DNA of 10,423 bases from an uncultured Clostridia bacterium. Lineage in GTDB: Bacteria; Bacillota; Clostridia; Peptostreptococcales; Anaerovoracaceae. The stretch covers positions 1 through 10,423 of the forward strand of contig CAKQNZ010000063.1 of assembly GCA_934255435.1 (NCBI GenBank), read 5' to 3'. This document shows, piece after piece, positions 1-10,423 of this stretch. The notes beneath the pieces are model-generated. The model was not told the origin of the DNA, made no database searches, and worked only from the letters and a program-made list of their open reading frames with translations. Every line of letters begins with the position of its first letter. Within the stretch, counting starts at the first letter, position 1. The position numbers were made by a program, and so were the translations under genes.

Positions 1-828
1 CGGATAGCATATGGCGAAAAGCACAGCGGCCTTTACTATCGTCAGTATTATCTCGCTGCCTTTGAAGCGTCGTTTTTCACCAATGCCGATATTGCCCTTT
101 GGACATGTATCTGCACAGTCTCCGCACTGAAAACAGTCTCCGGAAAATCCGTCTATGTCAAGGGATGCCGGACAGCTGCGCCTGCATGCGCTGCAGCCTT
201 TGATGCAGTTTTCACTGTCTTTATTCACGATGGAGACCGGTATCACTGGCATCATTGCGAACACCGCACCCATAGGACAGAGGAACTGGCAGAAAAATCT
301 CGGTACTATGCACATGCCGATGATGATGGCTCCCAGCACACAGGCTGCCGCTGCATGTCCGGAAAGAGAAACGCTGCCTGATGTGAATGAAGCGAACAGC
401 TCCCACGGATCCGCCATGCTGACCTTTGCATACCAGCCGAAAAAACAGAGAACAAGTATAGCTGCCAGCACTGCATATTTTACATACTGCAGTTTATGCA
501 GGACGCCGTCAGGCACCCTGAATATCTTGCCTCTGATCTTCTTCTGCAGGAATGATGAGACCCCGTATACCGCATCTCCCAGCGTACCGAAAGCGCAGGC
601 GTATCCGCAGAAGAAACGCCCCACCAGTACAGTGTACGCCAGCAGTATCAGCAGTATGCTGACGAATGACGTCACTTCTATGAGTTTCATATCGTGTATC
701 TGCGTTATAAGATAGCGCACTCCGGAGAATGCTGCTGAGAAAAGTCCCGGTGCCATGATGAAGAATATCAGCTGTATAGCTGCCCTCACCAGCCTGTTGC
801 GTTTCTTTCTGTTTTTAAGGAATTTCAT
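1..828 (-). CDS. NapH/NosR-like membrane 4Fe-4S binding protein (C-terminus beyond the window)
   Basis: The frame is open from an ATG at 828 to the left edge (276 residues, no stop seen), so the C-terminus is missing. Hydrophobic stretches at about residues 14-36, 53-73, 115-135, 157-176 and 258-276 look like membrane spans. Between the spans are two Cys motifs typical of NapH/NosR/YccM-type proteins: GRFFCGYACAFG (Cys74, Cys78) and RFFCQFLCPMGA (Cys180, Cys184). Two ferredoxin-type [4Fe-4S] motifs follow: C-x3-C-x2-C-x3-CP (208-220) and C-x2-C-x2-C-x3-CP (232-243). Such proteins pass electrons between the membrane pool or cytosol and extracytoplasmic redox partners. The ATG overlaps the TGA of the upstream FMN-binding gene (ATGA at 828-825), which suggests translational coupling; an AGGTGG at 840-835 may serve as RBS. 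In this operon it is the likely electron donor to the flavinylated proteins (inference). The family call is firm; donor and exact partner are unknown. Confidence 0.88.
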   Translation of the reverse strand, partial: MKFLKNRKKRNRLVRAAIQLIFFIMAPGLFSAAFSGVRYLITQIHDMKLIEVTSFVSILLILLAYTVLVGRFFCGYACAFGTLGDAVYGVSSFLQKKIRGKIFRVPDGVLHKLQYVKYAVLAAILVLCFFGWYAKVSMADPWELFASFTSGSVSLSGHAAAACVLGAIIIGMCIVPRFFCQFLCPMGAVFAMMPVIPVSIVNKDSENCIKGCSACRRSCPASLDIDGFSGDCFQCGDCADTCPKGNIGIGEKRRFKGSEIILTIVKAAVLFAICYP

Positions 829-1274
829 TCAGAGCCACCTGCCTTTCCCAGAGCTTCTTTAGCAGCTCCGATGATGCCGTTGGAGGTGTATGTGGCTCCC
901 GACACTACATCAACGTCGCTGCTCTGATCTGCGATGATACTGTCAAGGACGTCTATCGCCATATTGTAATATGCTGCGTCCTCGCCGTCTGCAGACAACA
1001 CCTGTATGTCGGAGATGTATCCGTCTTCGATGGTGACTTCCACAGTCACAGTGCCGCCGAACCCCTGAGCGCTGCCCTGATATGTACCGTTCTTGTATTT
1101 TCCCCCTGCCTGGGCTGAAGCCGTCTGGGAGCCGCCTGCGGAAAGGCTGGCGATGGTCTCGTTGGCTTTTGCCAGCTGCTGGTTCATCCCAAGCATCTGG
1201 TTGTAGTAAAGCAGTGCCAGCACTATCACGATGATGTTCACTGCCCGTATATACAGACTTCTTCTATTCTGCAT
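825..1274 (-). CDS. Membrane-anchored protein with one FMN-binding domain
   Basis: 149 residues. A short basic N-terminus leads into one hydrophobic segment (about 11-28) acting as an uncleaved membrane anchor. A short polar, probably coiled-coil stretch (about 29-45) and a Ser/Gly/Ala linker follow. A single FMN_bind domain (about 58-143) opens with the KNGTYQGSAQGFGG pattern and carries VSGATYTSNG, in which Thr128 is the expected site of covalent FMN attachment by ApbE, as in NqrC and RnfG. An AGGAGG at 1288-1283, 8 nt before the ATG, supports the start, which overlaps the end of the upstream triple-FMN gene by 11 bp. The stop overlaps the start of the 4Fe-4S membrane protein. Its size and anchor suit an electron carrier held near the membrane between the 4Fe-4S protein and the secreted flavoprotein (inference). 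The other Rnf and Nqr subunits are absent, so I would not call it RnfG or NqrC. Confidence 0.9.
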   Translation of the reverse strand: MQNRRSLYIRAVNIIVIVLALLYYNQMLGMNQQLAKANETIASLSAGGSQTASAQAGGKYKNGTYQGSAQGFGGTVTVEVTIEDGYISDIQVLSADGEDAAYYNMAIDVLDSIIADQSSDVDVVSGATYTSNGIIGAAKEALGKAGGSE

Positions 1275-2529
1275 CGGAAGTTCCTCCTGTATCGCTGCCG
1301 CCGTCTTCTGAAGTATCCGGTTTCAGCGCTTTGTCCAGAGCTTTCTTTACAGAATCCAGTATGCCGTTGGAGCTGTATGTGGCTCCGGTCACTGCATCCA
1401 CTCCGTCAGTCGTCTGCTTCTTTATTATCTTTTCTATGAGCTTTTTGGCCATGGAGATATATGGCTCGTCGTCCTGAGTCTTGGTCACGTCTATAGATGC
1501 GATCCTGCTGCTTTCTATCAGCACGGAAACATACATGAATCCTTTGTAGCCTCTTGCAAAACCTTCATATGTGCCATCCACGTAAAGACCTTCTGCCGGT
1601 GTATCCGGCTCATCCGGCGTGTCTGGTGTATCAGGTGTGTCCGGCGTATCAGGAGTCTGCGAGTCGTCTGCATCAGACTTCACTACAGCCTTCTTCAGTG
1701 CGTTTTCCACGGCTTCTATGATACCGTTGGAACTGTACGTTGCCCCGCTCACTGCGTCTACTTTCGTATTCTGAGCACTGAGTATCCTTGCTATGACGCC
1801 CTTTGATGCCTTGTCAAGATACGGCTTGTCGTCCCCTTCATTGTTTATCACCGATATCTTCGTTATCTTGCCGCCGCTTATGGTCACACTGACAGTTATC
1901 CTGCCGTTGAAGCCTGTACCTGTGCCTGTATAAACGCCGTTCCTGAACTTGCTGCCGTCAAGAGACGTATCGTGTTTATGCGATGGCTTTTTCTTTTTCG
2001 TGCTGCTCTTTTTGTCCTTCACTGATTTACCTGACGCCCTGGCGATGGCGTTCTCCACAGCTTTGATTATGCCGTTGGAGCTGTATGTAGCTCCGCTCAC
2101 TGCGTCCACGCTGAGACTCTGGGTCTTCAGCATCGCAGATATGACGCCTTTTTTCGCCTTTGCAACATACGGTGCATCATCGGCCTCCACCTCCACTACG
2201 TCTATAGAAATCATCTTGTGGTTTTTGATAACGACTTTGACTTTGATGTTGCCGGCATAGCCTCTGGCGCTGCCGTAGTATGTGCCGTCAGCGCATTTGG
2301 AAAGATCTCCCTTTGCCTTGTACGGGCTGGTGCTTTTTTTGCTGCTTGCCGTCTTCTTCTGTTTTTTCACAGATGTTTTTTTAGTATGCTGTTTAGTTAC
2401 TGCTGCTGATTCAGTATTCCCTGCCGCCAGGGCCTCGGGTGCCGGGAATCCTGTACTCAGTGTGAAAACCACTGCTGCTATTATCAGCAGCGACGGTATC
2501 ATACAGTGCAGTCCGCTCTTTCCTTTCAT
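1264..2529 (-). CDS. Secreted protein with three tandem FMN-binding domains
   Basis: 421 residues from the ATG at 2529, chosen because an AGGAGG lies 8 nt upstream (2543-2538) and the next residues form a good signal peptide (MKGKSG start, hydrophobic 11-25, likely cleavage near ALA36). An in-frame ATG at 2610 would only add an unlikely N-terminal extension. A Lys/Ser/Thr-rich segment (about 45-75) is followed by FMN_bind domain 1 (about 79-164), a Lys-rich linker, domain 2 (about 195-281), a Pro-Asp-Thr repeat linker (293-311) and domain 3 (about 316-402), ending in a Gly/Asp/Ser-rich acidic tail. The expected flavinylation sites are Thr148 and Thr264 (both SGATYSSNG) and Thr384 (TGATYSSNG). 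No sortase motif or lipobox is visible, so retention at the surface may depend on the basic regions. Three flavins on flexible linkers suggest an extracytoplasmic electron relay (inference). The distance to the stop of the upstream Tp47-like gene is 127 bp. Confidence 0.9.
   Translation of the reverse strand: MKGKSGLHCMIPSLLIIAAVVFTLSTGFPAPEALAAGNTESAAVTKQHTKKTSVKKQKKTASSKKSTSPYKAKGDLSKCADGTYYGSARGYAGNIKVKVVIKNHKMISIDVVEVEADDAPYVAKAKKGVISAMLKTQSLSVDAVSGATYSSNGIIKAVENAIARASGKSVKDKKSSTKKKKPSHKHDTSLDGSKFRNGVYTGTGTGFNGRITVSVTISGGKITKISVINNEGDDKPYLDKASKGVIARILSAQNTKVDAVSGATYSSNGIIEAVENALKKAVVKSDADDSQTPDTPDTPDTPDTPDEPDTPAEGLYVDGTYEGFARGYKGFMYVSVLIESSRIASIDVTKTQDDEPYISMAKKLIEKIIKKQTTDGVDAVTGATYSSNGILDSVKKALDKALKPDTSEDGGSDTGGTSDAE
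1597..1653 (-). repeat. Pro-Asp-Thr codon repeat linker
   Basis: A 9-nt coding repeat gives four PDT units, then PDE, PDT and P, between FMN-binding domains 2 and 3 of the secreted flavoprotein (residues 293-311). It reads as a stiff, extended, acidic spacer. Short in-frame tandem repeats of this kind often vary in number between strains, which would change the domain spacing. Confidence 0.85.
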
Positions 2530-2537
2530 GAAAATAT

Positions 2538-2543
2538 CCTCCT
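2538..2543 (-). promoter_or_regulatory. RBS deciding the start of the triple-FMN gene
   Basis: A perfect AGGAGG on the minus strand lies 8 nt before the ATG at 2529. It favours this start over the in-frame ATG at 2610, and the signal peptide begins right after it. Confidence 0.85.
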
Positions 2544-2571
2544 GGTATAGTCTGATATGACTTGTTTCTTT

Positions 2572-2588
2572 ACGGCAGAAATTGCCGT
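2572..2588 (-). other. Intergenic hairpin upstream of the triple-FMN gene
   Basis: A perfect 6-bp inverted repeat (ACGGCA, 5-nt loop, TGCCGT) lies in the 127-bp gap between the Tp47-like gene and the triple-FMN gene. The minus strand after it is A-rich, not T-rich, so it is not an intrinsic terminator. An mRNA processing or stability element is possible but unproven. Confidence 0.4.
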
Positions 2589-2630
2589 GCCCCGAAATGG
2601 AGCACAGCAATCTGCATTACTGATGTTTTA

Positions 2631-2644
2631 CCGGCTGATGCCGG
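2631..2644 (-). other. Small hairpin after the Tp47-like gene
   Basis: CCGGC, a 4-nt loop and GCCGG form a short GC-rich stem 12 nt past the TAA of the Tp47-like gene. The minus-strand sequence after it (TAAAAC) has no run of T, so a terminator is doubtful and read-through into the flavoprotein genes is expected. Confidence 0.35.
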
Positions 2645-2656
2645 ATATTTTGCTGG

Positions 2657-4963
2657 TTATTTTACTTTTACAGTCACTGTCTTTGAAACGCCGTTAGCTG
2701 AAACGATGATCTTTGCAGTTCCTTTTTTCTTGCCTTTGACAACACCCTTTGAAGTCACTGTTGCGATTTTCTTGCTGCTTGTCTTGTATGACACTTTTGC
2801 TGAAGGTGTTGCTGATGCTTTGACAGTTACCTTCTTGCCTTTCTTCACAGTGTATTTTGTCTTGCTTACCTTGATAGTCGGATCTTTTACTGTGACAGTG
2901 CACTCTGCATATATACCGCTGGCAGTAGCTCTGATAGTTACTTTGCCTGCCTTCTTAGCTGTTACAACACCATTTGAGCTTACTGTAGCAACCTTTGGGT
3001 TTGAAGAGCTCCATGAAACTTTGCTGTCAGGACCTGCTGCGTTGGCTGTCAGTTTCACTGTTCTGTACTTCGATGCAGGTTTCTTTGTATAGATAGTAGC
3101 TGATTTCTTGCTCAGGCTGATAGTCGGTGCTTTCTTCTGATATGTGAACGGCAGGCTCAGCTGGCTGTAGCCTTTTGCTGCTATGCTGAGATTGTAGGCT
3201 CCCCCTGCTTCAAGGCCTTCTGCTTTTGTCAGGTCATATACGCCGTTTGCATCGTTTTCAAGAATTGCAATATCTGTCTCTTCCCTGCCTGCTTTCTTTG
3301 TGATCTTCACAACAGTTTCAGAATCTGCCAGAGCTGCTTTGAAGCCCTCTGTGATATTTCCGAGAGTGAGCTTATCACCGTAAGTCGATACTGTCACAGT
3401 CGGTGCCAGATCGATTTCAAGTTCTATATCTGCATATTTTTCAGTTGAGATAACGAGTGTGTATGTGCCTACAAGGTCTTTATCTGCAGGTACTTTATAG
3501 ATCCCGTCTTTGCTGTTTTCCAGTGAAATGGACTTTTTACCCTGTGTCAGTGTGACTTTTGTAGCTTCGTCACCCAGTACAGCTTTCACGCTGTCTGCAA
3601 GACCTGATACAGTTATTGTTTTTCTGTCTGCTGATACATCAGCTGCTGCTTTTGATATGTCTGCCTGTTCCTTGATATATACAGTTGCTTCTACATCATT
3701 GTAGCCTGCTGCTTTGTAGATGACTTTCCAGTAGCCCAGCTTGTCTGCTGATGCTCCTTTATTATAGATGCCGTCTGCTGTAGTGTCTGATCCTGTTCCG
3801 CCAAGTCTCAGAGCATCGAAGTTGAATCCTGCATCTATCCTCACGCCATGGTTCGATGACCACCATGTGTCAGCAGCATTCTTGGTGCCGTATACTGCCT
3901 TCGGCTGAGCTGACTTGTCTGCATCAGGATCTGTCGATCCGTAGTACTGGTATTCAGCTGTAAGGAATCTTGAAGCATACGCTGAGAATTCCTGGCTGCT
4001 CATCGCTGAACCGTCAGCCTTCTTCAGGTATATATGTGCATCTGCATAGTCACCATAGTTAGTGTTGTATACATATTCAACATCGTCTGCGACTACATCA
4101 TAACCTGCTGCTGATATGCCATCTGATGCCGGGCCGTATGTGCCGTCTGTTTCCAGCTTCTTGATGCCGCCTGTAGCTGCAGTTACTTCATTGCCTGCGC
4201 CGTCTTTGCCGCCGATCTTCACGTTTCTGAAGGCTTTTGTTTCATCAGTACCCTTGCCTGTTTCGTTCAGGATCACTGCCTTTGCATAGTCCTGGCTGTT
4301 CACTGAAACAGGTATCCTCTGGAAACCTGAAACGCTGTAGTCGTCTATAGTGTACTGTACGCCGTCAATTGTGAATGTCTTGCCCATATCAGGGATCAGG
4401 ACAGCTCCCGGTGTGCCGTCTGCTCTTGTCAGTCCGCCAAGCTTTGGCGTAGTGAAGTCCGGATCGATCTCCACCATAGCACTTGCTGTAGCGCCTGAAG
4501 CTGCAACGCCGTTTACTTTAGCCAGGAACTGGAATCCATGTCTGAATATGCCGTGTTTCACTGTCGCTCTCGAAACTGCATCAAAAGCACCAAGGTCATC
4601 GGTCTTTTCCTGGTCCTGCGTAGTACCTTTAGCTTCTGTCTTTGTAGCCTTTTCGATGTTCTCGCCTTCCCAGTACTCCAGATATGACATGGATGCTGAA
4701 CCATAAAGTTCAGTGCCCTTGTCTGTCGTGTAGTACTTCACGCCTGTGTTTCCGATCTCTGTCGGTGTAACAACCTTGCCGTCTGCAGTATATGTGTCTG
4801 CTGACTTGTCAGTGTAGTAGTATGTGATGCCGTCCTTGACATCAAGCTTAGTCATGGCTGTGCTGCCGCTGTCTGCGTATACGCCTGCCGGTATGCAGGT
4901 CACCAGCATTGCTGCTCCTATTGCAAGAGAAGCAGCTCTGTTTCTGAGTTTTGATTTGATCAT
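2657..4963 (-). CDS. Secreted Tp47-domain protein with C-terminal Big2 (Ig-like) domains
   Basis: 768 residues. A signal peptide (1-30, cleavage after VYA) has no lipobox, unlike the treponemal lipoprotein. Residues of about 87-430 match the T. pallidum 47-kDa antigen as I recall it: SMSYLEYWEGE, GAFDAVSRATVKHGIFRHGFQF, YLKKADGS, TAEYQYYG and YGTKNAADTWW all have close counterparts. Two beta-rich Tp47-like modules follow (about 435-520 and 521-609), then a clear Big2 domain (612-692, with WSSSNPKVATVSSNGVVTAKKAG) and a degenerate, very Lys-rich second one (695-768). The basic C-terminus probably binds anionic wall polymers. Tp47 was reported to bind and hydrolyse beta-lactams, but the SVTK, TEN and KTG motifs proposed for it are not evident here (WWKTGR is replaced by WWSSNHG). 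It lies between apbE and the flavoprotein genes, which suggests a redox or metal role (inference). An AAGGAGGA at 4981-4974 precedes the ATG. Confidence 0.85.
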   Translation of the reverse strand: MIKSKLRNRAASLAIGAAMLVTCIPAGVYADSGSTAMTKLDVKDGITYYYTDKSADTYTADGKVVTPTEIGNTGVKYYTTDKGTELYGSASMSYLEYWEGENIEKATKTEAKGTTQDQEKTDDLGAFDAVSRATVKHGIFRHGFQFLAKVNGVAASGATASAMVEIDPDFTTPKLGGLTRADGTPGAVLIPDMGKTFTIDGVQYTIDDYSVSGFQRIPVSVNSQDYAKAVILNETGKGTDETKAFRNVKIGGKDGAGNEVTAATGGIKKLETDGTYGPASDGISAAGYDVVADDVEYVYNTNYGDYADAHIYLKKADGSAMSSQEFSAYASRFLTAEYQYYGSTDPDADKSAQPKAVYGTKNAADTWWSSNHGVRIDAGFNFDALRLGGTGSDTTADGIYNKGASADKLGYWKVIYKAAGYNDVEATVYIKEQADISKAAADVSADRKTITVSGLADSVKAVLGDEATKVTLTQGKKSISLENSKDGIYKVPADKDLVGTYTLVISTEKYADIELEIDLAPTVTVSTYGDKLTLGNITEGFKAALADSETVVKITKKAGREETDIAILENDANGVYDLTKAEGLEAGGAYNLSIAAKGYSQLSLPFTYQKKAPTISLSKKSATIYTKKPASKYRTVKLTANAAGPDSKVSWSSSNPKVATVSSNGVVTAKKAGKVTIRATASGIYAECTVTVKDPTIKVSKTKYTVKKGKKVTVKASATPSAKVSYKTSSKKIATVTSKGVVKGKKKGTAKIIVSANGVSKTVTVKVK

Positions 4964-4995
4964 GCTTTCGGGGTCCTCCTTCTTGACTCATCATC

Positions 4996-5005
4996 AATGA
5001 TCATT
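4996..5005. repeat. 10-bp palindrome upstream of the Tp47-like gene
   Basis: AATGATCATT is a perfect palindrome in the 95-bp gap between apbE and the Tp47-like gene, 15 nt upstream of its RBS. It could be a protein site, but it is short and AT-rich and has no other copy that I see in the window. Confidence 0.25.
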
Positions 5006-5025
5006 AACGTATGATATATAGTGAC

Positions 5026-5048
5026 TTTCCCATGCCCTGTATGGGAAA
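5026..5048 (-). other. Hairpin after apbE
   Basis: An 8-bp perfect stem (TTTCCCAT / ATGGGAAA) with a 7-nt loop begins 10 nt beyond the apbE stop. On the transcribed strand it is followed by GTCACTATATAT, with no T tract, so it is at best a weak terminator. It may set the mRNA ratio between apbE and the Tp47-like gene by partial termination or by protecting a 3' end. Confidence 0.45.
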
Positions 5049-5058
5049 ATGACTATGC

Positions 5059-6102
5059 TTATTCAACGACGGTGTATCCGTCCTTTGTCAGCGTGAATAT
5101 GTTTTTTGCCTTTTGGTTCATATATACATTCTTGTCTGAATCTGCAAACACTGCTGCTGCGTCGTATTTTTCTGCCAGCTCCATGCCTTTGTCTTTTCCC
5201 AGTACGAAACATGCTGTTGCCAGCATATCGCTGACTATGCCGCTGTCGCACACGACAGTCACTGAGATGAGGCCACTTTTCGCCGGATAGCCTGTTTCCG
5301 GATCTATGATATGATGGTATCTGACGCCGTCTTTCATGAAGTACTTCTCGTAATCTCCCGATGTGGAAATGTAGGACTCGCCTTCCACTGCTACTGTGCC
5401 GAGATAGTCGCCATCGTCTCTGGGGTCTGTGACTGCCACATTCCACGCTGATCCGTCGGGCTTGCCGCCGTATGTCATGATGCTGCTGCCACCGATGTTT
5501 ATGACTGCGCCGGTGACGCTGCCGTCTTTATCGAACATGTCTTTTATGCGGTCGCAGCCAAGGCCTTTGCCTGCCGCACCGAGATCCAGCGACGTGTCTT
5601 CATTCAGTCTGACGCTGTTGCCGCTGAGCTTCACCTTCTCATAGCCTGTGTCTTTGAGCAGCGCCTTTATTTTGCTATCCTCCGGCAGTTTCGGCGTTTC
5701 TCCGTCAAAGCCCCAGAGTCTCGTTATCTTTCCTATGGTTGGATCGAAAGCTCCGCCACTGTCCTTTGCCATCTTCAGCACGCTGTCAAGATAGCCTGCG
5801 GTATCGTCGGACACTTTCACAGCTTTCTTACCGGCCGCTGCGTTTATCTCAGCGATCTCGGAACCTGATTTCCGCCAGGATATCAGCCTGTCTTCCGTAT
5901 CGGAAAGTTCCTTCTCCACGTCTTCCGTGATGTCGTCTCCCGTGGTGTATATAGTCTCGCTGAGCACCGTGCCCATCACGAAACCTGTATAGTCGTACTG
6001 CTTCACACTGCCGCTGCCTGTGCTGCCGCAGCCTGTGAATATTACCACTGCAGCTGCGATGATCACAGCTATGGCTACTGTACTGAAACGTGTTTTTTTC
6101 AC
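5059..6102 (-). CDS. apbE: ApbE-type FAD:protein FMN transferase, lipoprotein
   Basis: 347 residues, the usual length for ApbE/Ftp. The enzyme uses FAD and Mg2+ to transfer FMN onto Thr of (S/T)GAT motifs in extracytoplasmic proteins; four such domains are encoded downstream. The N-terminus has basic residues, a hydrophobic segment (8-23) and a lipobox (FTG-Cys25), so it should be lipid-anchored outside the membrane. Family signatures are present in order: FVMGT (41-45), GGAFDPTIG (116-124), DLGAAGKGLGCDRI (173-186), INIGGS (201-206), STSGDYEKYF (246-255), HHIIDPETGYPA (263-274) and SDMLATACF (291-299). Asp292 and Thr296 are the expected metal ligands. The start is GTG, chosen because AGGAGG lies 6 nt upstream (6114-6109) and the signal peptide begins there. 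It is the first gene of the operon, behind the promoter at 6321-6293. Confidence 0.95.
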   Translation of the reverse strand: MKKTRFSTVAIAVIIAAAVVIFTGCGSTGSGSVKQYDYTGFVMGTVLSETIYTTGDDITEDVEKELSDTEDRLISWRKSGSEIAEINAAAGKKAVKVSDDTAGYLDSVLKMAKDSGGAFDPTIGKITRLWGFDGETPKLPEDSKIKALLKDTGYEKVKLSGNSVRLNEDTSLDLGAAGKGLGCDRIKDMFDKDGSVTGAVINIGGSSIMTYGGKPDGSAWNVAVTDPRDDGDYLGTVAVEGESYISTSGDYEKYFMKDGVRYHHIIDPETGYPAKSGLISVTVVCDSGIVSDMLATACFVLGKDKGMELAEKYDAAAVFADSDKNVYMNQKAKNIFTLTKDGYTVVE

Positions 6103-6108
6103 CGGTGG

Positions 6109-6114
6109 CCTCCT
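6109..6114 (-). promoter_or_regulatory. RBS setting the GTG start of apbE
   Basis: AGGAGG on the minus strand lies 6 nt before the GTG at 6102-6100. No in-frame ATG with comparable spacing exists, so the GTG start is well supported. Confidence 0.85.
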
Positions 6115-6125
6115 TATATTTCTGT

Positions 6126-6140
6126 ACCGGACGGACCGGT
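6126..6140 (-). promoter_or_regulatory. Leader hairpin just upstream of the apbE RBS
   Basis: ACCGG, a 5-nt loop and CCGGT form a short stem 11 nt upstream of the apbE RBS. The self-complementary ACCGGT of its 5' arm recurs at the apbE start codon (6106-6101), so the two copies could also pair and cover the RBS. No ligand-binding RNA motif is recognised. Confidence 0.35.
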
Positions 6141-6157
6141 GCTTATCGGACTCAGAC

Positions 6158-6205
6158 GTTCATATGATACTACATCTTCTGAACATCTGCGAATGGGTTC
6201 ATATG
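6158..6205. repeat. 9-bp direct repeat in the apbE leader
   Basis: GTTCATATG occurs at 6158-6166 and again at 6197-6205, 39 bp apart, in the untranslated leader of apbE. The function is unknown, and chance is possible given the AT-rich content. Confidence 0.3.
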
Positions 6206-6209
6206 TGTT

Positions 6210-6225
6210 GTTAGTTTTCGCTAAC
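6210..6225. promoter_or_regulatory. Dyad copy 2, GTTAG-N6-CTAAC
   Basis: This is a perfect 5-bp inverted repeat with a 6-nt spacer. It has the same arms and the same spacing as the copy at 6268-6283, with centres 58 bp apart. It lies in the leader, about 60-77 nt after the predicted transcription start. It may be a second operator or a small RNA hairpin. Confidence 0.55.
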
Positions 6226-6235
6226 CCTGCATCTG

Positions 6236-6263
6236 AAAAAAACAGCCTCGTACTGTGGCTGCT
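6236..6263 (-). terminator. Intrinsic terminator inside the apbE leader (possible attenuator)
   Basis: On the minus strand AGCAGCC (6263-6257), a 9-nt loop and GGCTGTT (6247-6241) form a 7-bp stem including one G-U pair, running into seven consecutive T (6242-6236). It lies about 25-50 nt downstream of the predicted start of the apbE transcript and about 135 nt before the apbE start codon. Because the upstream surface-protein gene has its own terminator at 6435-6477, this one should act on transcripts starting at the apbE promoter, as an attenuator or as the end of a short RNA of about 50 nt. I found no convincing antiterminator pairing. Confidence 0.75.
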
Positions 6264-6267
6264 ATCC

Positions 6268-6283
6268 GTTAGCTAAACCTAAC
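6268..6283. promoter_or_regulatory. Dyad copy 1, GTTAG-N6-CTAAC, overlapping the transcription start region
   Basis: Inverted repeat arms GTTAG and CTAAC are separated by 6 nt, just downstream of the -10 box. Read on the minus strand, TTAGGTTTAGCTAAC also resembles the left and central part of the DtxR/IdeR consensus TTAGGTTAGGCTAACCTAA. Its position at about +4 to +19 suits a repressor that blocks transcription, perhaps a metal-responsive DtxR/MntR-family protein. The regulator itself is not in the window. Confidence 0.6.
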
Positions 6284-6292
6284 TCATTTGGT

Positions 6293-6321
6293 ATAGTATC
6301 ATTTATTACTTGTTTTGTCAA
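6293..6321 (-). promoter_or_regulatory. Sigma-70-type promoter of the apbE operon
   Basis: On the minus strand a perfect -35 TTGACA (6321-6316), a 17-bp spacer and a -10 TACTAT (6298-6293) are present. Transcription should start near 6286. This gives a leader of about 184 nt before the apbE GTG, holding the dyads and the internal terminator. Confidence 0.8.
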
Positions 6322-6434
6322 TACATCAATATCCGGTCATAGCTTTTGGGGAAAAATTCAGAGGCTCGCCGGCCGCACGCTGTACCTGGATCACAGACTT
6401 CGTATTTTAAAATGATTTCATATACTTACTGCTC
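6322..6434. other. Intergenic stretch with no recognised feature
   Basis: Between the terminator of the surface-protein gene and the apbE promoter I see no gene, RNA or repeat beyond an isolated 10-bp palindrome ATTTTAAAAT at 6404-6413. The whole gap between stop and start codons (6103-6497) is otherwise filled by the terminators, promoter and leader listed separately. Confidence 0.6.
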
Positions 6435-6477
6435 AAAGAAAAATGAAGACCAGCTGCTGCACCTGCTGCCGGTCTTC
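6435..6477 (-). terminator. Intrinsic terminator of the leucine-rich surface-protein gene
   Basis: On the minus strand GAAGACCGGC (6477-6468) and GCTGGTCTTC (6454-6445) form a 10-bp stem with one G-U pair, followed by ATTTTTCTTT (6444-6435). It begins about 20 nt past the TAA at 6498, as expected for the end of that transcript. It separates the surface-protein gene from the apbE operon. Confidence 0.85.
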
Positions 6478-6497
6478 TGTATCTGTCGGTACGTTAT

Positions 6498-9400
6498 TTA
6501 TTTTACTTTGACGGTCTTCGTCTTCGACCATGCTCCGTAATAAGTCTTTCCTGATACTTTCTTGTATGCTCTGACTTTCACGGTGTATCTCTTTCCCTTT
6601 TTCAGTGATTTGATGGTACGTGACGTCTTTGCAGTGTTTATGGTCTTCCATGATCTCGCACCTGACTTTTTATATGCGATCTGGTAAGACACGTCTCCGC
6701 TCTGTTTACCGATCTTCACCGATGCAGAGCGTTTCCCTGCTTTGACTGATTTAAGGGTCGTCTTTGCAGGCACGATGGAGAACGTCTTCACAATCTTTCC
6801 TGTGTAGTAGCCTTCGCCTGTTATCTCCACTTTTCCTGTGCCGATGGCCTTGTTGTTTTTGTATGATACGTTGTAGTCCGTGCCTTCTTTGAGACCTGCT
6901 ATCTTCACGGACGGCTTGTGTGCCTTGCCACTGTATGTGAACTTCGCTGCACTGATGCTGATCTTCATATCTGCCACTGAACCAAGCTGCAGCTTCATAC
7001 CCTTTTCCAGAGCGAACTTCGCAGCTGCGCTGTCTTTGCTGTCGGCTTTTATGGTCATTTCTTCACGGTTTATAAATGAATCGCCTGCTATGTCCTTTAC
7101 CGATGACGGTATATGAATGATTTTCAGTGCATTGCTGCCCTCTTTGCCCATGAACACCTTTGCACCTATAGTTTCGAGAGTGGACGGCAGGCTGAGTTCT
7201 TCCAGCGAATCCATTCTGGCGAAAGCTTCATTTCCTATGGATGTGACGCCTTCAGGAATCACCAGTTTCTTCACGTCTTTAGCCCATGAAAATGCTGATG
7301 CGCTGATGGTTTTCAGCGTTGACGGCAGGATTATCTCCTCCAGGCCCTCTTCGTATCCCCAGAAGGAGAACGGTTCTATCGTAGTTATTCCCTCAGGGAT
7401 GACTACTTTCTTTCCTTTGCACTCTGCGAATCCGTATGCTCCGATGCTTCTGACTGTAGACGGTATCCTGTCCACACCGGTCCAGTTCTCGGCTCCGAAA
7501 AATGCTGAATCCTCAACTGTTTCGAGGCCCTCCGGCAGTTCACAGTCAGTGAGGCCTTCGTCGTACTGGAATGCGCCTTTACCGATGGTCTTCAGGGTGG
7601 ACGGCAGCGTCACTTTCTCAAGATCGAAGCACATGAAGAACGCATATGATCTGATCTTCGTTACGCCATCGGCGACTTTTGCACTGGTGCATCCTCTCGG
7701 GCAGAACACCACTTCATCGCCGTCTTTGTTGTAAAGTACACCGTTATAGCTGCTATACAGCGGATTTTCACCGGATACCGTTATGGTCTTCATATTTTTG
7801 TCTGCGATAGTCTTTCCGGCCACTTCGAAAACATCCCCCATATACTTACCTCCCATGTCTTCGAACGTAGACGGCAGGTGGAGCGTGGAAAGATGTGCTC
7901 CCAGGAACGCTTCCTGTCCTATCGTTTTCAGACCTTCGTTGAGAGTTATGCGGGTGAGAGCACTGCAGCCTGAGAACGCTTTTGCTTCTATTTTCTCTAT
8001 GGTCTCAGACAGTACCACTTTCACCAGCGACTTGCAATTCTGGAAAGCGCTTTCCGGTATCGTCGTCATGCCTTCACCCAGCGTGATCTTCTCGACTGCT
8101 GTGTTGCTGAAGGAGCTTTTGCCGATCTCTGTCACGCTGCTGAGGTTTATGGATGTCAGTCCAGTGCAGCCTGAGAAGGCTTCATCGCCTATGATGGTCA
8201 GAGTCTTCGGCAGCACTACATCCTTTATATCTGTCTTTCCTTTGAAAGCGCCGGCCTCGATGCCTTTTACTGTCGTACCTCCTATTTCTTCAGGTATCTC
8301 CAGCTTCGACATATCGCTGCCCAGGAAGCCGTTTATCATGCCATCTTCCGTCACAGTGAAATCACTCTCGCCCTCTTCCTTGACTACGTTCACTTTGCAC
8401 ACGGCAGTCAGTCTGCCTGCTCTTGCTGTGATCTCAGCTGTTCCCGGTTCGACGCCTGTGACTTCGCCTTTGTCTGTCACTTTCACGATATTTTTATCGC
8501 TGCTGCTCCATACGACTACCGGTATTCGGGCACCTTCAGGTGAGGCTGTCACAGTCAGTGTCTTCGTCTCCTGTCTGCCGATTCTGAGATCGTTCTCGCC
8601 TAAAGTTATGGATGTGGCGTCCCTGAACTCGTCAAGAGTATGGAACACCATTTTGCACTTGTCGCCTCTTGATTCTTTCTCGTTCTTTACGAATGTTTCT
8701 GTCTTCGAACCTGACGGTGCATAGACATCCAGTGCGTAACAGTACGGGATGGCGTCCTTTGCAAGCTCTGTGTCGCTACCTTTTATGACGATATATCTGT
8801 CGCCGCTGTATTCGTAATCAAAGGCACCTTCTCCGATGGACTTCACCGACGCCGGTATCGTTATACCTGCGACATGACTCACGGAAAATGCTCTGTCTCC
8901 GATAGTCTCAAGACCATCATTTAGATCTGCAGATCTGAGCTGTGCATTGAAGAATGCTTCCTGGTCTATAGTCTTCATCATTCCCGGGAATTCCAGATAT
9001 CTCACCGATGAGTTCATGAAAGCCATTTTCCCGATGGATTCCAGGCTGTCAGACAGATCCATCTTTTCTATACTGCTTTTGAAAAACGCATACTTGTCTA
9101 TCGCTGTTGTTTTATCGCTGAATTTTATCGACGTCTTTGCTGCAGGGCAGTATATCAGCGTGCTGCCGTCTGCATCATATACGACGCCGTCTGCTGATGA
9201 ATATGTACTGCCCCCTTCTGCTACATTGACTGCAGTGAGTTTCGCAGGTGTGGCCTGCGGCGTTCCTGTTCCGGAAACATTTACGAACATCTCGCCGAAC
9301 CATGTGCTGTCAGTTCCCACTGTTTTCAGCGACGCCGGAAGGTTCAGCGTCTCCAGTGAGTTCATGCCGCTGAAAGCTTTTGCTGCGATGGAAGTCACTC

Positions 9401-10423
9401 CTTCAGGTATCGTAAGTTCTGTGACAGCAGCCGCCTTGCTGAATGCTCCCGAGGCGATCTCCTTCACGCCTGAAGGCACGGACACTTTCGTGTCTTTGCC
9501 GTTATAGGATGTCAGAACTCCGTCTGTTATCTCAAAATCTGCCGGGTCGCTGACTGTGACTTTGCAGACTGCTGATTTTTCGCATGCTGATGCCTTTATT
9601 TCCGTCGTTCCCGCTGCAACTGCCATGACTTTACCTGTATCATCCACAGATGCTATTTTATCGTCTTCCGATGTCCATGTCACCTTGCGGTCCGTAGCGT
9701 TTTCCGGCAGGACTTCGGCTTTAAGAGTCTCCGAAGCACCTGTGGCGAGGCTGAGAACTGACGGTGTCACTGTCACTGAGCTTACTGCGACATCCTGCGC
9801 ACTGTCGATATCCACGAACTCCAGCTTGCACTTGTCGCCCTTGGACTCCTTCTGCGAGGTTACATATGTTTCAGCTGTGGAACCTTTGTGACCGTATATC
9901 TTTACAGTGTTGTAGTAGGCTGCGAACCCGCTGCCAAGCACCGTATCCTTGTTCAGTATCTTTATGGAAGACCCTCCTGCGGAACCAAGTCCCAGGCTGT
10001 CGAAGGCGTCTCCACCTATATCAGTCACGCTTTCAGGTATCTCTATGACAGTACCTGCTGGAAAATACACTTCGCTGAAAGCTCCATATGCTATTGTCTT
10101 CAGACCTTCATGGAAAGTGACTTCCTTCAGCCTTGCAGCATAAAAAGCACTGCTGTCTATAGTCTCCACTGACGACGGTATATCTATCTTAGTCACCGCT
10201 GCATTGAAAAACGCAGATTTGCCGATCTTCTTAACAGATGACGGTATCGTGACGCTTGTGCATTTTGAATTTTTCAGCGCATTGTCACCGATCTCTGTAA
10301 CTGTATCCGGTATGGTTATAGCTTCATCGCTGCCGTTATATGCAGTCAGGACCCCGTCTGTTATGACAAAGTCGCTGCTGTCACCGGCCGTATCGGCATA
10401 GGACGGCATTACCTGCGATATAC
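6498..10423 (-). CDS. BspA-like leucine-rich-repeat / Big2 / FN3 surface protein (N-terminus beyond the window)
   Basis: The frame is open to the right edge. An ATG at 10409 exists but is probably internal: the residues around it (ISQV-MPSYA-DT) look like the end of a signal peptide, so the true start lies upstream outside the window. Numbering from that Met gives 1303 residues. There are three blocks of T. pallidum/BspA-type leucine-rich repeats, with units such as IPSSVKKIGKSAFFN and LPSTLKTIGKGAFQ (about 14-195, 290-595, 682-1140). Big2 domains separate the blocks (about 207-287 and 598-676). A Lys-rich MBG/Ig-like domain (about 1147-1212, with YSGKAHKPSVKI) and an FN3-type domain (about 1213-1303) end the protein. 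No LPxTG is present; the basic C-terminus may bind the wall. Relatives act as adhesins or surface-binding proteins, but the ligand here is unknown. It has its own terminator and belongs to a separate transcription unit from the apbE operon. Confidence 0.9.
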   Translation of the reverse strand, partial: ISQVMPSYADTAGDSSDFVITDGVLTAYNGSDEAITIPDTVTEIGDNALKNSKCTSVTIPSSVKKIGKSAFFNAAVTKIDIPSSVETIDSSAFYAARLKEVTFHEGLKTIAYGAFSEVYFPAGTVIEIPESVTDIGGDAFDSLGLGSAGGSSIKILNKDTVLGSGFAAYYNTVKIYGHKGSTAETYVTSQKESKGDKCKLEFVDIDSAQDVAVSSVTVTPSVLSLATGASETLKAEVLPENATDRKVTWTSEDDKIASVDDTGKVMAVAAGTTEIKASACEKSAVCKVTVSDPADFEITDGVLTSYNGKDTKVSVPSGVKEIASGAFSKAAAVTELTIPEGVTSIAAKAFSGMNSLETLNLPASLKTVGTDSTWFGEMFVNVSGTGTPQATPAKLTAVNVAEGGSTYSSADGVVYDADGSTLIYCPAAKTSIKFSDKTTAIDKYAFFKSSIEKMDLSDSLESIGKMAFMNSSVRYLEFPGMMKTIDQEAFFNAQLRSADLNDGLETIGDRAFSVSHVAGITIPASVKSIGEGAFDYEYSGDRYIVIKGSDTELAKDAIPYCYALDVYAPSGSKTETFVKNEKESRGDKCKMVFHTLDEFRDATSITLGENDLRIGRQETKTLTVTASPEGARIPVVVWSSSDKNIVKVTDKGEVTGVEPGTAEITARAGRLTAVCKVNVVKEEGESDFTVTEDGMINGFLGSDMSKLEIPEEIGGTTVKGIEAGAFKGKTDIKDVVLPKTLTIIGDEAFSGCTGLTSINLSSVTEIGKSSFSNTAVEKITLGEGMTTIPESAFQNCKSLVKVVLSETIEKIEAKAFSGCSALTRITLNEGLKTIGQEAFLGAHLSTLHLPSTFEDMGGKYMGDVFEVAGKTIADKNMKTITVSGENPLYSSYNGVLYNKDGDEVVFCPRGCTSAKVADGVTKIRSYAFFMCFDLEKVTLPSTLKTIGKGAFQYDEGLTDCELPEGLETVEDSAFFGAENWTGVDRIPSTVRSIGAYGFAECKGKKVVIPEGITTIEPFSFWGYEEGLEEIILPSTLKTISASAFSWAKDVKKLVIPEGVTSIGNEAFARMDSLEELSLPSTLETIGAKVFMGKEGSNALKIIHIPSSVKDIAGDSFINREEMTIKADSKDSAAAKFALEKGMKLQLGSVADMKISISAAKFTYSGKAHKPSVKIAGLKEGTDYNVSYKNNKAIGTGKVEITGEGYYTGKIVKTFSIVPAKTTLKSVKAGKRSASVKIGKQSGDVSYQIAYKKSGARSWKTINTAKTSRTIKSLKKGKRYTVKVRAYKKVSGKTYYGAWSKTKTVKVK

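Follow-up and report, generated by a model that had tools for sequence, protein, structure and literature searches.

A Tp47-domain surface protein in a putative flavin relay gene cluster that shares a palindrome with iron-type genes

Genes and leader of the cluster

The window, a 10,423-nt stretch of DNA from an uncultured, gut-type Clostridia bacterium, carries a run of five genes on its minus strand, read from apbE down to the window edge. apbE (5059..6102) encodes an FAD:protein FMN transferase lipoprotein of 347 aa, which matches the Pfam ApbE profile over residues 43–319 (E 1.1e-82) and, under that model's cut-off, the NCBIfam ApbE model (E 1.8e-41). It is followed by the genes for (i) a secreted surface protein of 768 aa (2657..4963) with Tp47_a, Tp47_c and C-terminal Big_2 domains, (ii) a secreted triple FMN_bind protein of 421 aa counted from ATG (1264..2529; FMN_bind E 6e-43 in three stretches), (iii) a membrane-anchored single FMN_bind protein of 149 aa (825..1274; FMN_bind E 8.6e-15), the anchor being judged by eye, and (iv) a NapH/NosR-like 4Fe-4S membrane protein (1..828; Fer4_5 E 9.8e-12), cut at its 3′ end by the window edge, which also matches the NapH/MauN model TIGR02163 at a score under the model cut-off (E 1e-16). 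The spacing is not tight at 95 bp (apbE to the Tp47 gene) and 127 bp (Tp47 gene to the triple FMN_bind gene), and overlaps join the last three genes. These profile searches confirm the gene content that the initial annotation had read from the letters. Both FMN_bind proteins carry DxxSGAT-type motifs, predicted flavinylation sites, at 2086–2106, 1738–1758 and 1378–1398 in the triple protein and, as DVVSGAT, at 891–911 in the single one. In the window and in its relatives, a NapH-like (PF12801) membrane protein clusters with ApbE or FMN_bind (in the window with both), the combination that defines a NapH-like flavinylated system.

The initial annotation placed all five genes behind one promoter. 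A promoter-like site, TTGACA-17-TACTAT with TG ahead of the second hexamer (6293..6321, minus strand), is indeed well placed ahead of apbE, but the pattern occurs at 8 sites where shuffles give 8.5, so that statistical support is lacking and the site is weak taken alone. Right behind it lies an operator-like palindrome, GTTAG-N6-CTAAC (6268..6283, minus strand), and a second copy follows 58 bp away (6210..6225, minus strand). An Rfam search over positions 4900–6600 gave no match up to E 1, and a leader hairpin with a T run is weak (z −1.5). The initial annotation had neither the two palindromes nor the set of iron-type genes in which they recur; both point to a job for the relay.

Tp47 genes and flavinylation genes across genomes

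The window Tp47 protein passes the Pfam profiles PBP-Tp47_a (64.0 bits) and PBP-Tp47_c (26.5 bits, cut-off 25) and was assigned to the Tp47 fold. Whether run on the whole model or on domain A by itself, a fold search listed 1o75 and common folds among its 50 best matches; no recognised FMN_bind entry was among the 50 of either search, a result that excludes nothing.

We fetched 54 loci by Tp47 patterns and surveyed their neighbouring genes. FMN_bind occurs in a separate ORF in 47 of these loci, NapH in 43 and ApbE in 39; all three are present in 34, and at least one lies within 10 kb in 48. The association spans many Bacillota and Actinomycetota records, and no relative was found in the viral contigs scanned. 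Of 20 genomes, 18 have a Fer4_5 gene no more than 10 kb from the Tp47 gene (1.5% expected). Among 250 genomes of one family, window-type NapH is found in all 12 genomes with Tp47 and in 12 of the 238 without (Fisher P 2.8e-14, kinship ignored); kinship of the genomes inflates all P values in these comparative tests. Tp47 and FMN_bind are moreover fused in 14 of the 54 Tp47 ORFs according to our own FMN_bind profile and in 10 of 24 scanned with Pfam, and FMN_bind is listed for 11 of 60 homologues. PF07456, described as EetB-type FAD export (PMC9973259), is encoded in 25 of the 54 loci.

For the treponemal antigen there is one printed table row on T. pallidum subsp. pertenue, in which the product of TP0572, a gene lying two locus tags away from TP0574 (Tp47), is listed as FMN-binding. 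Beyond that row, our literature searches linked FMN to none of Tp0572, Tp47 and the tags nearby, and they returned no relevant report joining Tp47 with FMN and none under the Pfam names of Tp47. The neighbourhood survey by which the initial annotation proposed to check its reading thus yielded conserved co-occurrence (all three genes in 34 of 54 loci, plus fusions), and the redox context that it suggested for the Tp47 family is borne out by this association, the FMN_bind fusions and the TP0572 entry.

A palindrome common to the relay and iron-type genes

Among 11,264 palindromes tested upstream of system genes, GTTAG-N6-CTAAC ranks first. The shorter form TTAG-N6-CTAA has 82 of its 104 sites in sequence upstream of system genes, which makes up 9.6% of the total, and at least one site in 50 of 65 sources; this site count included ten extra loci (two of them, L069 and L072, repeat contigs of L027 and L004), none of which entered the ranking. 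The exact site was not found near a system gene in 15 of the 65 sources. In genome G004, one site precedes the Tp47 gene (L007) and another precedes an unlinked relay operon (L075).

Elsewhere the palindrome precedes Nramp, ZIP and NEAT genes and, by Pfam assignment, feoA, flavodoxin, NrdI, FUR and DtxR-family genes; 4 of 10 genomes have a PF02742 gene no more than 1 kb from a site. The palindrome is common to known iron genes, as would hold for a DtxR-family regulon; non-iron genes share it too. Of 50 proteins scanned behind it, many have no plain iron role and 8 belong to no Pfam family, the non-iron genes including enolase (4 genomes), a Na:alanine symporter, a PFL-like protein, a methyltransferase, a DNA methylase and a helicase. 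In genome G038 the palindrome does not outnumber its reversed control (3 versus 5), and the Nramp and ZIP genes could point to manganese or zinc. Inner bases are conserved in the DtxR/IdeR box consensus; the six spacer bases of GTTAG-N6-CTAAC, in contrast, are not, so the assignment of the repressor to DtxR rests on gene neighbourhood. The palindrome was not found, under six spellings, in the literature that we searched. We regard the association of Tp47 with flavinylation genes and the shared operator as well supported; the palindrome pair ahead of apbE, as the first-ranked pattern common to Tp47/relay and iron-type genes, is new here.

The palindrome is also upstream of 14 of 19 short feoA genes and near none of 11 long FeoAB-type genes (P 8e-5, inflated by kinship). 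In Faecalibacterium, ferrous iron is reported to repress feoB of feoA1A2BC and not feoAB, and a flavodoxin gene to rise with it (PMC10781979). Two Faecalibacterium feoA loci (L173, L174) have no palindrome within 1.5 kb, and a third (L186) has its sole copy 1.45 kb upstream; our data therefore match that report by operon type, not by that operon.

A proposed electron-transfer chain and its alternatives

From what was observed directly (gene content, conserved association, fusions and shared palindrome), we favour, with somewhat better than even confidence, an iron-responsive extracytoplasmic flavin electron-transfer chain with the Tp47-domain protein as its surface end. At low iron the two GTTAG-N6-CTAAC sites would be vacated by their repressor, which probably belongs to the DtxR family. 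ApbE would attach FMN to the four acceptor domains, and the NapH-like Fe-S protein would pick up electrons at the membrane, with quinol or a cytosolic Fe-S donor as candidate sources. Electrons would then pass via the anchored FMN_bind protein and the multi-FMN protein to the Tp47 protein, which would extend outward from the envelope. The chain would reduce ferric iron, a ferric chelate or heme, and Fe2+ would enter via Feo, ZIP or Nramp. We infer the order of electron flow, which repressor acts, that iron is the acceptor and that Tp47 is what contacts this acceptor; Tp47 may be the terminal or substrate-binding part, as the initial annotation proposed. The gene set probably helps the cell win iron during shortage, because its DNA switch matches one before iron-uptake genes.

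It is somewhat unlikely that Tp47 serves just as a scaffold at the surface, holding or spacing the flavin wire within a thick wall without contacting the acceptor. Tp47 proteins do bear varied wall-binding or spacer modules (Big_2, FIVAR, fn3, SLH, choline-binding, dockerin), and one NapH-positive locus (L076) has FMN_bind and two sibling domains without a Pfam Tp47. Against this role, the D, V, R, T and following G of the polar Tp47 loop are invariant in 53 aligned sequences, which suggests a binding or catalytic site, and fused FMN_bind domains place a redox centre beside that loop. Invariance in alignment A4 was set aside, since its locus rows had been chosen by a loop-fixing pattern.

We consider it unlikely that the chain serves respiration by extracellular electron transfer, discharging surplus electrons onto environmental acceptors (quinones, flavins, iron minerals), with the iron-type operator merely tuning it to metal supply. 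Among the known candidates for extracytosolic redox systems are NapH-like and multi-flavinylated proteins (PMC8238504), and the EetB-type genes of the Tp47 loci suit such a route. However, a palindrome common to feoA, NEAT and DtxR-family genes suits acquisition better than disposal, and synthesis of an Fe-S protein at low iron would make sense mainly if iron is gained.

The loop itself, DAVSRAT in the window (4562..4582, minus strand) and conserved among relatives, resembles the ApbE motif with R replacing G. That Tp47 is a covalent flavin carrier, with ApbE placing FMN on the threonine of D-x-V-[ST]-R-A-T, is nevertheless highly improbable. Of the 54 loci, 52 carry this loop; F-D-A-V-[ST] was prescribed by one search pattern of the two, R or T by neither. 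A sibling domain shows D-x-[VI]-[ST]-[ST]-A-T at the corresponding position, [ST]RA[ST] is found in ten true FMN_bind domains of neighbouring proteins, and the loop is poorly ordered in the predicted model (confidence below 50 over residues 122–133). The ApbE motif is, however, D-x-x-[ST]-G-A-[ST], which the window Tp47 lacks, and changing its Gly to Ala cuts flavinylation to about half (a passage of PMC12052999). The glycine is present in 0 of 54 Tp47 loops and 0 of 22 sibling sites. R takes its position in all 54 loci, as RAT in 52, RST in L053 and RPT in L044, and the loop reads DAVTRPT in P0010 and P0013 and DAVARPT in P0014. Between FMN_bind and Tp47, hhalign aligned just the ten-residue motif, at a probability of 4%. 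Judged from its sequence, Tp47 itself is probably not flavinylated, because the glycine of the flavin-attachment motif is missing.

Finally, a role of Tp47 on peptidoglycan or beta-lactams, with an incidental flavin-gene neighbourhood, is most improbable, although the Pfam name, the penicillin-binding label in the title of Deka 2002 (cited in PMC4767422) and the term putative beta-lactamase (PMC6646400) suggest it: association, fusion and shared palindrome far exceed chance, and the commonest neighbours among the named families (smaller clusters, in which a wall gene may occur, aside) are ApbE, NapH, FMN_bind, PF07456 and PF07009.

Tp47 is a standard syphilis antigen whose structure is solved and whose job is unsettled, and one paper calls it treponema-specific (PMC6646400). 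The family gains a testable function from a large set of relatives, several of them in cultured, named strains, that occur in a flavin relay marked by fusions and by an iron-type operator. We tentatively raise the possibility, short of probable, that in gut Bacillota and Actinomycetota a DtxR-type-controlled flavin wire ends at the surface in the Tp47 domain, which would handle ferric iron or heme there, and that treponemal Tp47 stands in the same redox partnership beside TP0572 and is not primarily penicillin-binding. The cluster also hints at how commensals (Faecalibacterium, Blautia, Coprococcus) might reduce iron at their surface, and GTTAG-N6-CTAAC is a candidate iron operator for these under-studied bacteria.

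Literature on flavinylation with ferric reductase, DtxR and NapH showed no comparable system among the matches listed. T. pallidum Tp47 (TP0574; PDB 1o75) has the Tp47 domains and an FDAVSRAT loop as in the window, and differs from the window protein in being a lipoprotein. In Listeria EET the electron donor is Ndh2. Listeria EET (EetA/EetB, FmnA, FmnB, PplA; PMC9973259) resembles the window in having a Gram-positive surface flavin wire, an ApbE-type enzyme and EetB FAD export; it differs in that the donor here is NapH-like and the carriers are FMN_bind proteins and Tp47, where Listeria has PplA. SaFMN3 and CbFMN4 likewise carry several FMN_bind domains in tandem, each with a DxxSGAT-type motif, but have no partner surface protein in the portion of PMC10339131 that we covered. 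Iron-linked flavinylated systems comprise PepSY-like (Fur-repressed in two species), MsrQ-like with VIT1, and P19/FTR1 systems (PMC8238504). They too connect flavinylated carriers to iron reduction and uptake; unlike the window, they are marked by other membrane or iron proteins in the passages covered and regulated by Fur, where a DtxR-like regulator is the candidate here. The iron passages covered in the same paper do not tie NapH-like systems to iron, and its main text does not mention Tp47, penicillin or Treponema. Its 539 clusters of NapH-like systems in which FMN_bind is a gene of its own (Meheust 2021, PMC8238504) are also among the closest known systems: in them, as in the window, the NapH-like membrane Fe-S protein has a separate FMN_bind protein as its neighbour, ApbE being present here as well, and the window cluster differs from them by its Tp47 surface protein and iron-type operator.

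Association of Tp47 with flavin-transfer genes

Genome contigs were scanned with the Tp47 patterns [YF]GTK[FN]AAD and D[KL]G[AG]FDAV[ST], yielding 54 loci; judged by record title, these include Blautia, Coprococcus, Faecalibacterium, Anaerostipes, Thomasclavelia, Clostridiales Family XIII, Collinsella and Eggerthella. Using our own profiles and phmmer, we found within 10 kb of Tp47 an FMN_bind domain in a separate ORF at 47/54 loci, NapH at 43/54 and ApbE at 39/54. All three occur together at 34/54 loci and any of them at 48/54. The Tp47-containing flavin gene set described in the initial annotation is confirmed. Co-occurrence of Tp47 with flavinylation genes in other genomes, which the annotation set as its test, is seen (at least one partner gene at 48/54 loci), and the annotation was right to assign Tp47 a redox context. 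The commonest gene orders are A-F4-F1-N-Tp47 and Tp47-F-F1-N, with A present or absent (A, ApbE; F, FMN_bind with domain count; N, NapH-like). Six loci have no relay neighbour: in L002, L003, L033 and L053, Tp47 lies close to the contig end; for L007, the relay of the same genome stands elsewhere (L075); and L051 is a Tp47 remnant whose genome has its relay on another contig (L073). This remnant (L051/L067) contains a stop, while the relay has been kept.

Tp47_a is confined to a single ORF per genome in 38 whole genomes. For 20 of these, Fer4_5 matches were merged into 51 genes; 18/20 genomes have such a gene no more than 10 kb from Tp47, with 1.5% expected, and 14/20 have ApbE that close, at 1 to 3 ApbE matches per genome. 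Tp47 is rare among genomes, being found in 1/398 drawn from one phylum, where the sole positive is the sampling centre itself, and in none of 14 control genomes. We further sampled 250 genomes evenly from the family of G036 (an Anaerobutyricum hallii genome), which we take to be Lachnospiraceae. Tp47 exceeds the Pfam cut-off in 12 of them, one being a stop-containing remnant, and a 13th match falls under the cut-off. Window-type NapH (E 1e-40) is present in 24/250, comprising 12/12 Tp47 genomes versus 12/238 others (Fisher P 2.8e-14, kinship ignored).

In Treponema, a table row of PMC5607219 gives TP0572 as an FMN-binding domain protein and putative membrane protein (622652-623734); judged from locus-tag order, it lies near TP0574, which is Tp47. 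The window also encodes a large surface protein of the BspA leucine-rich-repeat type that carries Big_2 and fn3 domains (6498-10421, minus strand, 5' end cut), and holds no sign that this protein is a relay member.

Surface modules and the Tp47 loop

Tp47 is fused to FMN_bind at 14/54 loci by our own profile. Pfam detects FMN_bind in 10/24 scanned Tp47 proteins, a set taken mainly from the longer ones, and both domains are listed for 11/60 homologues, the window protein counted within the 60. A Shr-like hemoglobin-interacting domain occurs in 12 of the 24 scanned proteins. For the clade of the window (window protein 4963-2657 and homologues P0002-P0013), the protein database lists two newer Pfam families, PF26182 and PF26918; both are absent from our Pfam scan of the window protein. 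A sibling domain with YVLMNIPYADFYKAE...DAVSSAT, to which Pfam scans assign no family, is found at 22 sites in these surface proteins (carriers include L020:7958-13120, L054:7823-13144 and L076:4331-8347); profile comparison shows its kinship to Tp47 (hhalign probability 98%, E 2e-13). In the NapH-positive locus L076, FMN_bind and two sibling domains occupy the Tp47 position with no Pfam Tp47 match, so the surface module is exchangeable.

We asked whether Tp47 is itself FLAVINYLATED, since its conserved loop resembles the ApbE site. In the review PMC12052999, the ApbE motif is D-x-x-[ST]-G-A-[ST], and changing its glycine to alanine lowers flavinylation to about half. R replaces this glycine in the Tp47 loop at 54/54 loci, and the loop reads D-x-V-[ST]-R-A-T at 52/54 (exceptions: L053, DAVSRST; L044, DAVTRPT); the position is S or T at 22/22 sibling-domain sites. 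FMN_bind domains from the same sources carry [ST]GAT in 221/263 cases, and 19/263 are without any such pattern. Because the glycine is gone from the loop and alanine in its place impairs the reaction, covalent flavinylation of Tp47 appears unlikely, and we rate the loop as a putative binding or catalytic feature. The change from glycine to arginine also appears within true FMN_bind domains, ten of which contain [ST]RA[ST] (examples are the last domains of L026:3047-5110, L040:3303-5366 and L019:1741-3294); in 9/11 SRAT/TRAT cases the domain is the last of four or five. An acidic run such as CEPDEDEDF and a cysteine often adjoin the motif. Such domains are probably not flavinylated.

A palindrome upstream of relay and iron genes

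Like the genes, their company and the fusions, the palindrome GTTAG-N6-CTAAC is directly observed. Two exact copies lie in the apbE leader, at 6268-6283, directly behind the promoter-like site, and at 6210-6225; two matches with one mismatch allowed were reached in 3/200 shuffles. Between them, a hairpin CAGCC-N9-GGCTG followed by seven T (6233-6262, minus strand) is a possible attenuator, with weak folding support. Across 65 sources (the window and 64 loci, of which two are repeats), 82/104 TTAG-N6-CTAA sites lie upstream of system genes, in stretches that make up 9.6% of the sequence, a density 35 times the rate elsewhere; 50 sources have such a site. In a ranking by source number of palindromes with 5-base halves and spacers of 2 to 12, made over the upstream stretches of the window and 54 loci, GTTAG-N6-CTAAC came first of 11,264 (37 sites in 30 sources); the best listed palindrome other than its shifted copies reached 8 sites in 7 sources. 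Genome G004 carries it both at a lone Tp47 gene and at a distant relay operon.

Across 10 genomes, the exact palindrome occurs 84 times versus 21 times for the reversed control, G038 being the exception (3 versus 5). We read 40 palindrome regions from eight of these genomes, a subset of their sites, and scanned 40/57 downstream proteins against Pfam, together with ten more mostly chosen for an iron-gene look. The first 40 give iron or metal matches to Nramp (2 genomes), ZIP (3 places, 2 genomes) and NEAT (1 genome); the chosen ten include FeoA in 2 genomes, a DtxR-family repressor in 2, and FUR, NrdI and flavodoxin in 1 each, the last belonging to a Faecalibacterium (L109). In genomes G004, G012, G013 and G034, a PF02742 gene and a palindrome site are less than 1 kb apart. 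Families of unknown function that recur downstream of the palindrome, namely DUF3793 (three genomes; L100, L129, L131), Trep_Strep (three genomes; L108, L120, L130) and DUF2325 (two scanned; L124, L144), may be part of iron handling. ABC exporters recur in 3 genomes, and in four genomes the palindrome precedes an enolase gene (L102, L116, L123, L126). Helicase, DNA methylase, PFL-like and Na:alanine symporter genes do not fit the iron reading, and 8/40 scanned proteins have no Pfam family.

FeoA gave 63 matches across 18 genomes. Among the best 30 of these, a relaxed site stands upstream of 14/19 short feoA genes, usually at a distance of 270 to 520 bp to the FeoA match, and near 0/11 long FeoAB-type genes (P 8e-5); control palindromes occur at 2/30. 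This pattern mirrors the iron response in Faecalibacterium, where, according to PMC10781979, feoB of feoA1A2BC is repressed by ferrous iron and feoAB is not, and a flavodoxin gene rises along with feoA1A2BC. However, two feoA loci of Faecalibacterium, L173 and L174, lack a site within 1.5 kb, and a third, L186, has one at 1.45 kb.

Proposed working and known systems

We infer the electron order, substrate and regulator as follows. Iron shortage would release the repressor from the operator and the relay would be made; EetB-type FAD export and ApbE would load FMN onto the carriers, NapH would supply electrons, and Tp47 proteins would bring the flavin wire to a ferric substrate. An EetB-type gene (PF07456) is found in 25/54 relatives, 21 of which also have a NusG_II gene, presumably EetA; none is visible in the window.

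What is new here, and of more use, is the iron-type regulation. PMC8238504 ties flavinylation to iron uptake in PepSY-like, MsrQ-like and P19 systems; in the passages considered, nothing links Tp47 and a DtxR-type operator to relays of the NapH-like kind.
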